A stretch of DNA of 64,000 bases from Nitrospirota bacterium (lineage in GTDB: Bacteria > Nitrospirota > Thermodesulfovibrionia > Thermodesulfovibrionales > UBA6898), in contig JACRMT010000005.1 of NCBI GenBank assembly GCA_016214855.1, positions 1 through 64,000 of the forward strand. The letters are read 5' to 3'. Below, in pieces: positions 25,863-34,950 of this stretch. Below the pieces are notes generated by a model. It was not told where the DNA came from. It made no database searches and was given only the letters and a program-made list of their open reading frames with translations. The position numbers were made by a program, and so were the translations under genes. The stretch's first letter is position 1. Every line of letters starts with the position of its first letter.

Positions 25863-26972
25863 CTACAAAAGTCTCAAAATATTGTAATACGTATCCCGCT
25901 GGGCAGGGACAAAGCCGGCCGAGCGGATGGCGCTGATGATGTCATGCATGGTGACCGCATAGCTCACGCCGGTAGCGGCCACGACATTCTCCTCGATCAT
26001 GGTCGAACCGAAGTCATTCGCACCAAAACGGAGGGCTACCTGAGCCATTTTCAAGCCCTGGGTCACCCACGAGGCCTGGATGTTCTCGACGTTGTCGAGA
26101 TAGATCCTTGAAAGCGCCAGCACCCTGAGATAGTCAACAGCTGTTGCTGCATGAAAAGTTGACTTTTGAGTTTTGAGTTTTTTCACGGCTGACGGCTGAT
26201 TACTGACGGCTGATTGCTGATTCAATTCCGTATTGCCCGGCTGGAATGACCAGGGTATGAAGGCCGTAAATCCGCCTGTTCTGTCCTGAAGCTGCCTGAC
26301 GGCATCAAGGTGGGTAATGATGTCCTCAGGTGTCTCGATACTGCCGAACATCATGGTCGCTGTTGTCCTCATGCCAAGCCTGTGCGCTGCTTCCATCACC
26401 TCGAGCCAGCGCGAGGACTTGATCTTCCTGGGGCTCAGCACCTCCCGCACGCGGTCAGAAAGTATCTCTGCGCCGCCGCCGGGGATCGAGTCCAGACCTG
26501 CAGACCTCAGTATCCCGAGAGTTTCCCTTATGGTCAGGTCTGATGCATCTGCGATATAGCAGATCTCCGGCGGTGAAAAGCCGTGGATATTGATATCGAA
26601 CCGATCCTTGATAGAAGAAAGAAGATCAGTGTAATAAAAAATATCGAGTGCCGGGTGGAGGCCGCCCTGGATAAGTATCTGTGTGCCGCCGAGCTCGACC
26701 GTCTCTTCGATCTTCCTGAATATGGTATCCGTGTCAAGCAGATAGGCATCCGCATCATCTTCATCCTTCCAGAATGCGCAGAAGGTGCACTTATTAATGC
26801 AGATATTTGTGTAGTTGATGTTCCTGTCTACAACAAAGGTGCAGATCTTATCAGGATGGAGCGTTCTCCTGATAGTATCCGCCCACATGCCCAGGCCAAG
26901 CAGGTCGGCATTTTTGAATAAGGCAAGCGCCTCTTTACCGCTTATCCGGCTGTTGATCCGTTGTGTCGTCAT
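25863..26972 (-). CDS. mqnC: cyclic dehypoxanthinyl futalosine synthase (radical SAM)
   Basis: MqnC closes dehypoxanthinyl futalosine in the futalosine route to menaquinone. The radical-SAM cluster CxxxCxxC is Cys58/Cys62/Cys65 (NICINKCTFC), followed by ILIQGGLHP and SIPGGGAEIL typical of MqnC. The protein carries an extra Gln/Ser/Lys-rich stretch at about 251-274, encoded by 7-base-periodic repeat DNA, between PGNTEL and ATAVDYLR where relatives have only a short loop. Its ATG overlaps the mqnE stop (ATGA), so the two are coupled. Confidence 0.93.
   Translation of the reverse strand: MTTQRINSRISGKEALALFKNADLLGLGMWADTIRRTLHPDKICTFVVDRNINYTNICINKCTFCAFWKDEDDADAYLLDTDTIFRKIEETVELGGTQILIQGGLHPALDIFYYTDLLSSIKDRFDINIHGFSPPEICYIADASDLTIRETLGILRSAGLDSIPGGGAEILSDRVREVLSPRKIKSSRWLEVMEAAHRLGMRTTATMMFGSIETPEDIITHLDAVRQLQDRTGGFTAFIPWSFQPGNTELNQQSAVSNQPSAVKKLKTQKSTFHAATAVDYLRVLALSRIYLDNVENIQASWVTQGLKMAQVALRFGANDFGSTMIEENVVAATGVSYAVTMHDIISAIRSAGFVPAQRDTYYNILRLL
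26158..26220. repeat. heptanucleotide repeat array inside mqnC
   Basis: On the plus strand TTTTGAG occurs twice (26164-26177), then CGGCTGA twice, TTACTGA, CGGCTGA and TTGCTGA (26186-26220), all in 7-base register apart from a single-base phase shift near 26185. The array is in frame within mqnC and adds about 20-24 residues. Confidence 0.8.
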
Positions 26973-28078
26973 CAGTATGTCCTGACCGCCTTATAAAATG
27001 AATCCCGCTCTACAGCTGTTTTGCCTGCCTTCTGTATCAGGTTCACCAGCTGTTCTGCCGTGAGCTTTTCACCGGCCAGTCCCCCCGCCGAATGGGTGAT
27101 CTTCTCCTCAACGATTGTGCCGTCAATATCGTCAGCCCCGAACAGGAGAGCAAGCTGGGAGATCTTTTCTCCCAGCATGATCCAGTAGGCCTTGATATGA
27201 GCAAAATTATCGAGGAAGATGCGGCTCACTGCTGCTGTCCTGAGATCGTCGATGCCGGAGGTATAGCTGCCCTTGATCTCCGTATTTTTGGGGTGATAGG
27301 CAAGGGGGATGAACGCCTGGAAGCCCTTTGTCCTGTCCTGCAGACCTCTCAGGCGCGAGAGATGATCGACCCTGTCAGCAAGGTCTTCAACATGTCCATA
27401 GAGCATGGTCGCATTCGTCCTGATGCCGACCCGGTGGGCTGCTTCCATCACCTCGATCCAGCGGTCACCCGGGATCTTTTCCGGACAGAGCCGGTTCCGT
27501 ATGCCTTCTCTGAAGATCTCTGCGCCGCCGCCCGGCATGGAGCCGAGCCCGTTCTTTTTCAGGGCGGTAAGCGTATCGTGAAGAGAACGTCCGCTGATCT
27601 TCGAGAAATAATCGATCTCCACTGCAGTGAATGCCTTGATATGGAGCCTTGGAAAATGTTTTTTTATGGCAGAGATCATGTTGAGATAATGCTCAAAGGG
27701 CCATTCAGGATGAAGGCCGCCAACGATATGGACCTCGGAAATGCCGAAAACAGCCTGCCTGCCTGCCGGCTTGCCCGCCCGCCCGCCAGTTTGCCCTTCG
27801 CCAATCTTCTTGATTATTTCATCTATGGTGAGCTCGTATGCGCCCTCCTGCCCCTGAGACCTGCTGAATGCGCAGAACTTGCAGCGGTTCACGCAGATGT
27901 TTGTCGGGTTGATATGCCTGTTCCGGATGAAATAGGCCTTGCTTCCGTTTTTCTTTCCGGCCACATGAGATGCGAGAGCGCCGAGGGTGAAGATGTCGTC
28001 GGTCTCGAAAAGGCGCAGAGCGTCCTCTTCGGTGATGCGTTTGCCTGCGAGGACTTTTTCCCGTATTCCGGAGAGCAT
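26972..28078 (-). CDS. mqnE: aminofutalosine synthase (radical SAM)
   Basis: MqnE joins SAM to 3-(1-carboxyvinyloxy)benzoate to form aminofutalosine, an early menaquinone step. The radical-SAM cysteines are Cys62/Cys66/Cys69 (NICVNRCKFC); VHIVGGLHPEWPFE and SMPGGGAEIF are MqnE-like. A Gly/Arg/Lys-rich stretch, QTGGRAGKPAGRQA (about 96-109), is encoded by tandem 4-base repeats and looks inserted. mqnC follows with a 4-base overlap; other mqn genes are not in the window. Confidence 0.93.
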   Translation of the reverse strand: MLSGIREKVLAGKRITEEDALRLFETDDIFTLGALASHVAGKKNGSKAYFIRNRHINPTNICVNRCKFCAFSRSQGQEGAYELTIDEIIKKIGEGQTGGRAGKPAGRQAVFGISEVHIVGGLHPEWPFEHYLNMISAIKKHFPRLHIKAFTAVEIDYFSKISGRSLHDTLTALKKNGLGSMPGGGAEIFREGIRNRLCPEKIPGDRWIEVMEAAHRVGIRTNATMLYGHVEDLADRVDHLSRLRGLQDRTKGFQAFIPLAYHPKNTEIKGSYTSGIDDLRTAAVSRIFLDNFAHIKAYWIMLGEKISQLALLFGADDIDGTIVEEKITHSAGGLAGEKLTAEQLVNLIQKAGKTAVERDSFYKAVRTY

Positions 28079-34565: not shown

Positions 34566-34594
34566 TTGACAAGCAGGGATCTCCCTGTTACTGT
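34566..34594 (+). promoter_or_regulatory. promoter with internal palindrome upstream of the HMA protein
   Basis: TTGACA (34566-34571) and TACTGT (34589-34594, with TG two bases before, an extended -10) are 17 bases apart. Between them lies CAGGGA-TC-TCCCTG, an inverted repeat. A regulator bound between -35 and -10 is the MerR-family layout, fitting a metal-responsive gene; the spacer is shorter than typical for MerR. Confidence 0.45.
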
Positions 34595-34641
34595 TTAGCT
34601 GAATAAAGGTTTCCGAATTATTATTTATCAGGGGGAGTATT

Positions 34642-34950
34642 ATGAAAAAAAGAAAACAGGTTGTCTCAGCTGCTCTGGTCTTTCTGTTCCTGACATTGGC
34701 CGCCCTTGTCCATGCCGAAGAAATAAAGGTCAGATTGAATGTGCCTACGGTATTTTGAGCATCAGCTGCAATGACGGCAAGTTTTGCCGTGGAGGCCCTT
34801 GCAGGGGTAAAGAAAGTTGATGATGATCAGGAGAAGCGTACGCTCACCATTATTTTTGATGACAGCAAGGTTACGGTTGAGGCAATTAAAGAAGCATTAA
34901 TAAAAGCCGATCACAGAGTTGAGGGTAATGGTGAAATATTGTCAAAGTGA
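34642..34950 (+). CDS. periplasmic heavy-metal-associated (MerP-like) protein, probable selenoprotein with in-frame TGA
   Basis: Reading through TGA 34756-34758 gives one 102-residue protein. It has a signal peptide (MKKRKQVVSAALVFLFLTLA..., cleavage near VHA-EE at 25/26) and then a complete HMA/MerP fold: IKVRLNVP, a metal loop, helix, AGVKKVDDD, TLTIIFDD, TVEAIKEALIKA. The TGA is codon 39. It lies exactly 16 residues before the conserved Gly55-Val56, the position of the first Cys of CxxC in MerP. The second Cys is Ala42. A perfect hairpin follows 15 bases downstream. GGGGGAG precedes the ATG. The alternative is a nonsense-broken gene, but the fold is undamaged on both sides. Confidence 0.72.
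34774..34790 (+). promoter_or_regulatory. SECIS-like hairpin for Sec insertion at TGA 34756
   Basis: ACGGCAA (34774-34780), loop GTT, TTGCCGT (34784-34790) is a perfect 7 bp stem. Bacterial SECIS elements need an apical loop beginning with G (or G second) about 16-37 bases after UGA; here the loop starts 22 bases after it and begins with G. This fits SelB-dependent selenocysteine insertion. Confidence 0.65.

Follow-up and report, generated by a model that had tools for sequence, protein, structure and literature searches.

The HMA fold is the textbook two-thiol metal carrier. Selenocysteine (Sec) has already been met within it: the Sec-bearing HMA proteins known so far comprise NF041115 (UxxU), NF045683, a P-type ATPase with UxxC and two 'MerP' sequences of the GOS survey, whose Table 2 lists a selenoprotein 'Mercuric transport protein MerP' with two sequences and no Sec motif (PMC2398784). 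A family with a lone Sec is hence a variant among these. It appears to be uncatalogued, as none of the NCBIfam models reached its cut-off on the eight sequences tested and neither MerP nor HMA is named in a 2026 review of prokaryotic selenoproteins; it may be described by Haft and Tolstoy 2025, reportedly the source paper for the Tso (three selenoprotein operon) system.

Here we analyse such a gene, Sec-HMA, in a 64,000-nucleotide stretch of contig JACRMT010000005.1 (the window) from a Nitrospirota genome (3.30 Mb in 23 contigs, with a listed completeness of 100%). Its product is almost certainly, judging from sequence, a selenoprotein with an HMA fold.

An in-frame TGA in an HMA gene

With the TGA read as Sec, the gene (Table 1) encodes MKKRKQVVSAALVFLFLTLAALVHAEEIKVRLNVPTVF-U-ASAAMTASFAVEALAGVKKVDDDQEKRTLTIIFDDSKVTVEAIKEALIKADHRVEGNGEILSK, that is MKKRKQ...VPTVFUASAAMTASF...EILSK. 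The original prediction had put the TGA at the first Cys of the metal-binding motif with undamaged protein on either side, and both points are borne out: in MerP and CopZ homologues the first Cys of MTCxxC stands opposite codon 39, Sec also falls on the first Cys of the metal loop, without gaps, when the profile is aligned to HMA structures, the spacing of 16 residues from U39 to Gly55 is correct, and an export signal comes before the TGA and an HMA/MerP fold after it. On our reading of the sequence the signal has a basic start, a hydrophobic core and an A-x-A-type end, from which we infer export to the periplasm. The second Cys had been predicted to be Ala, as it is (Ala42), so the metal loop reads U-A-S-A and lacks the two-Cys CxxC of HMA proteins. 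Since the clade members read also have a residue other than Cys at the second position, loss of this Cys in the window's clade would leave a lone Sec at the metal site.

Table 1. Features of the Sec-HMA locus, in window positions
Feature	Position	Strand	Remarks
Probable promoter	34566..34594	+	TTGACA, 17 nt, TACTGT; dyad CAGGGATCTCCCTG (34574-34587) in spacer
Ribosome-binding site	34631..34637	+	GGGGGAG; sequence reading
Sec-HMA gene	34642..34950	+	102 residues, Sec39, stop TGA 34948-34950; full-length TGA orthologues
Predicted export signal	34642..34716	+	residues 1-25 (...LVHA/EE); sequence features, in-frame in relatives
HMA domain	34735..34908	+	Pfam PF00403 match, residues 32-89
Predicted UGA Sec codon	34756..34758	+	residue 39, first Cys position of HMA CxxC
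SECIS-type hairpin	34774..34790	+	7 bp stem, loop GTT

Assignment to the HMA fold comes from a Pfam score above the cut-off (30.9 bits against a gathering score of 24.8) and from an AlphaFold2 model on a 30-sequence alignment (mean pLDDT 81, above 90 across most of the domain), which has the beta-alpha-beta-beta-alpha-beta order typical of HMA proteins and finds MerP (1osd) as its top solved match in Foldseek (TM-score 0.89 by target length). The claim that the protein is MerP-like thus stands for the fold but not for the family, given a score of 45.8 bits, which is below the cut-off (92.55) of the MerP equivalog TIGR02052 and a genome without MerT. With MerT present in only one of the 20 genomes checked, we reject a role in a mer operon. 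NF041115 (31.4 bits, cut-off 95) and NF045683 (22.8 bits, cut-off 375) score below their cut-offs too, and with its single Sec the window protein does not belong to the UxxU family.

Upstream of the gene, the -35/-10 stretch is preserved in both close orthologues, and the dyad CAGGGA-TC-TCCCTG of the promoter spacer is kept in one of the two; the -10 element is weak and was not listed by a consensus scan. Sec-HMA would have a promoter of its own, possibly regulated, together with an operator.

Conservation and decoding of the TGA

Under table 11 the TGA is a stop and an in-frame ATG (34771) follows five codons on, as would suit a plain stop, whether the gene has decayed, the sequence is in error or a peptide of 38 residues precedes an internal start. 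Many genomes share the TGA, however, and none of them has TAA or TAG instead. Full-length TGA-bearing orthologues within the genus are 82-84% identical, and downstream of the TGA Ka/Ks is 0.08 and 0.07 for the window against its two closest orthologues: the codons after the TGA are under strong purifying selection, which excludes a decayed tail. Moreover, the upstream signal peptide is in-frame across relatives, which counts against internal initiation, and the downstream ATG is not conserved. On the strength of conservation, Ka/Ks and the in-frame signal peptide we reject pseudogene, sequencing error and internal start, and consider the plain-stop explanation highly improbable.

The homologues, which the original prediction had named as a test, carry TGA at the same codon and never TAA or TAG. 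Exactly one TGA, at the codon 39 site, is present in the full-length members (L006-L011, L013-L017, L031-L033) that came from a kin search of 61 genomes; in our first alignment 14 of 15 sequences had TGA and the remaining one Cys. A Cys form, for which that prediction proposed to search, occurs in genome G019 (L012/L062), where TGT takes the site and a second Cys is again lacking (C-A-T-R). Its origin through loss of the Sec machinery is ruled out, SelA being present in G019. Other homologues have CxxC, with Cys at the UGA position. Further TGA forms, in order-level relatives, emerged from a phylum-wide search (L063-L068, L081 and L077, the latter with two tandem copies), nearest named records being Nitrospirae MAGs, Thermodesulfovibrio sp. 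SW.3.86 and a Thermodesulfovibrionales bacterium, and others from Deltaproteobacteria and Syntrophaceae MAGs (L136, L172 and, twice, L164), among which tree taxonomy assigns L172 to Thermodesulfobacteriota and L164 to Myxococcota. In 395 genomes of the L136 phylum, TGA forms account for 15 of the 16 loci that score best. In a tree the window groups with 16 other Sec rows and one lone-Cys row (clade support 99/97), and four label changes suffice for the TGA forms compared with 17.6 in shuffles, on a short alignment with weak deeper branches. Two tandem Sec-HMA genes per locus are seen in unrelated genomes (L164:5583-6225, L104:7733-8321), and exported HMA relatives with a CxxU motif, where Sec comes one residue later, occur at L184, L185, L186, L192, L193 and L195-L197.

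All four of selA, selB, selC and selD, proposed as a check on the reading, are found in the window's genome. SelB scores 375 bits (cut-off 242), SelA 616 bits and tRNA-Sec 70.9 bits (cut-off 47) with anticodon tca (UCA), while SelD has an in-frame TGA of its own in its N-terminal CAGUAAKFSP (...LSGCAG-TGA-AAKFSP), so that UGA is very probably read as Sec elsewhere in this genome too. Of 36 Nitrospirota genomes checked, comprising carriers and family members, 34 have SelA, as do three of four carriers reached by other tools; two genomes with TGA genes (G002, G404) gave no SelA, their assemblies possibly being incomplete. Decoding of the TGA without Sec, e.g. as Trp or Cys by near-cognate read-through, would agree with the Cys that one clade member and the CxxC homologues have at the site; against a full Sec machinery and a conserved SECIS-type element, we hold it to be exceedingly improbable.

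As for this element, published rules for bacterial SECIS hairpins ask for G in the first two loop positions, a loop 16-37 nt from UGA and an energy of at most -7.5 (PMC13188914). The perfect hairpin that had been predicted 15 bases past the TGA is there (34774-34780 paired with 34784-34790) and falls within these rules, with its loop 22 nt past UGA and -7.9 kcal/mol; if the innermost A-U pair is left open, the loop becomes AGTTT and the apical loop lies 21-22 nt past UGA. Taken alone the window hairpin is modest (fold z-score -1.53) and 3.7% of synonymous recodings equal it, so the strength of the SECIS case is comparative. Past the TGA 23 sequences align without gaps, and 85.7% of cells form a conserved 7-pair stem (14-20/26-32 nt past TGA). 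Its covariation score of 0.429 was equalled by none of 500 shuffles (0.181 +/- 0.027) and compares with 0.05-0.17 for slid versions of the stem, and 23 stem cells are altered on both sides against 8.0 +/- 2.0 in shuffles, bearing in mind that relatedness of the sequences can inflate such results. Conservation across relatives thus lifts the hairpin above chance. The loop has G followed by U or G in 28 of 28 Sec sequences and in 1 of 57 Cys homologues at the same offset, and GU/GG is retained across the codons AGT (Ser), AGG (Arg) and CGT (Arg), meaning that the nucleotides are preserved although the residue varies. One sub-group (L052, L053, L056, L057, L011) has a wider loop, CAGUGAC or CCGUGAC, outside the strict hairpin rule. 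In L184-L186 and similar loci, where the TGA is one codon later, we recognise by eye a hairpin AGGATAG-GTT-CTATCCT or close to it, and it seems that the Sec codon shifted and the hairpin did not. Rfam gave only an insignificant match at the locus. The selenoprotein reading is strongly supported by these several independent lines, and Sec would indeed be incorporated at residue 39.

Gene neighbourhood and possible roles of the lone selenolate

We propose that the product of Sec-HMA is a secreted selenoprotein with a single HMA domain (MerP/Atx1 fold), whose UGA39 would be decoded by SelB and Sec-tRNA(UCA), aided by the SECIS hairpin that closely follows the codon. In its mature form the periplasmic protein would offer a single selenolate in place of the two thiols in the metal-binding loop of MerP, because the second Cys is lost. 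This selenolate would most likely bind a soft metal or metalloid, i.e. Hg(II), Cu(I) or As/Se species, with a second ligand supplied by a small thiol, by a partner or within a dimer, and the bound element would be buffered or handed over at the cell envelope. Given a selenoprotein with an HMA fold, we think it reasonably probable that the lone Sec serves as such a ligand, and the whole account, a secreted HMA selenoprotein whose selenolate binds a soft metal or metalloid, is the one we favour on balance. HMA chaperones normally use more than one ligand, so a single one counts against this function, as do the scarcity of MerT and the lack of a clade-wide neighbour.

A methyltransferase gene (PF05430) and an MFS gene precede Sec-HMA, and the window neighbours examined by Pfam comprise MFS, methyltransferase, GGDEF, HNH and genes without assignment; no Tso genes are among them. 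A clade-wide operon is ruled out, no neighbour being common across the window's clade. Thermodesulfobacteriota-type genomes have the gene between unrelated genes, e.g. Maf and an opposite-strand nucleotidyl transferase. In two MAGs a gene pair is divergent from Sec-HMA (L136:2775-5584, L164:2311-5352), coding for an FG-GAP repeat protein and an outer-membrane-porin-like protein without Pfam match. Elsewhere in the window (25863-28078), two adjacent minus-strand radical-SAM-like genes are a candidate futalosine menaquinone pair.

A different picture emerges from two order-mates, L101 (7320-10976) and L106, with an ArsR regulator, Sec-HMA, a TsoC-like selenoprotein, a TauE permease, SelD and another TauE permease on the same strand. 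The TsoC-like gene, read in L101 (8026-8274), encodes NEPMGKRU and scores 38 bits with the TsoC profile (cut-off 45), and SelD again has its own TGA, so that three predicted selenoprotein genes stand together in what is possibly a selenium-supply or metalloid operon. Such clustering would suit a periplasmic selenium handler whose Sec carries Se (as selenenyl-sulfide or perselenide) toward the permease and SelD, or senses and buffers reactive Se/S species; the next-best specific families of the ArsR protein, BigR (sulfite sensing), CmtR and TsoR, also fit, all of them below cut-off. Yet the cluster is confined to two closely related genomes, and no such genes are seen in the window or in any other neighbourhood examined, which makes this role unlikely in our view.

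Redox enzymes make up the majority of predicted Sec proteins (PMC2398784), and UxxS and UxxT sites are known from other selenoproteins. Accordingly, the lone selenol might reduce peroxides, disulfides or metal species through a one-Sec mechanism, with the HMA fold a mere scaffold. Fold and sequence indicate metal carriers instead, and a thioredoxin-like neighbour was seen in one genome alone (L087), so we regard a redox enzyme as distinctly doubtful. Selenium handling and redox catalysis are nonetheless the main rivals of the metal-ligand role that we prefer. A broader and quite tentative view, which we would not rank above a possibility, sees exported HMA selenoproteins across several phyla whose two-thiol site has given way to a single selenolate, where Sec drifts by one codon among sub-groups (lone U, CxU, CxxU) with the SECIS fixed to the protein, and some members may act alongside TsoC, TauE and SelD in supplying Se or metalloids, not in mercury resistance.

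Relation to described HMA selenoproteins

Standard annotation ends at the TGA, so genes of this kind are likely to be missed or shortened. A family that kept one selenolate and discarded the second ligand makes single-site selenolate binding chemistry directly testable, and it adds to the exported selenoproteins listed for bacteria that are poorly cultured and represented mostly by MAGs.

Among described systems, MerP (TIGR02052; PDB 1osd, 1afi) shares the export signal and the HMA fold with Sec-HMA and is its top structural match, but it has two Cys where Sec-HMA has one Sec, at MerP's first Cys position. The 'MerP' of the GOS survey is likewise a Sec-containing MerP and can be compared by its description only. 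In the Tso system the link is by neighbourhood, a gene resembling TsoC (NF045708) following Sec-HMA in the relative L101, whereas no Tso gene is seen next to Sec-HMA in the window. The MerT/CopZ fusion-like heavy metal transport selenoprotein (NF045683) is also a selenoprotein with a CopZ-like heavy-metal domain, though fused to a membrane transporter, while Sec-HMA is free-standing. The UxxU metal-binding (seleno)protein (NF041115), finally, is HMA-like with Sec in the metal loop just as Sec-HMA is, but carries two Sec where Sec-HMA is without a second ligand.
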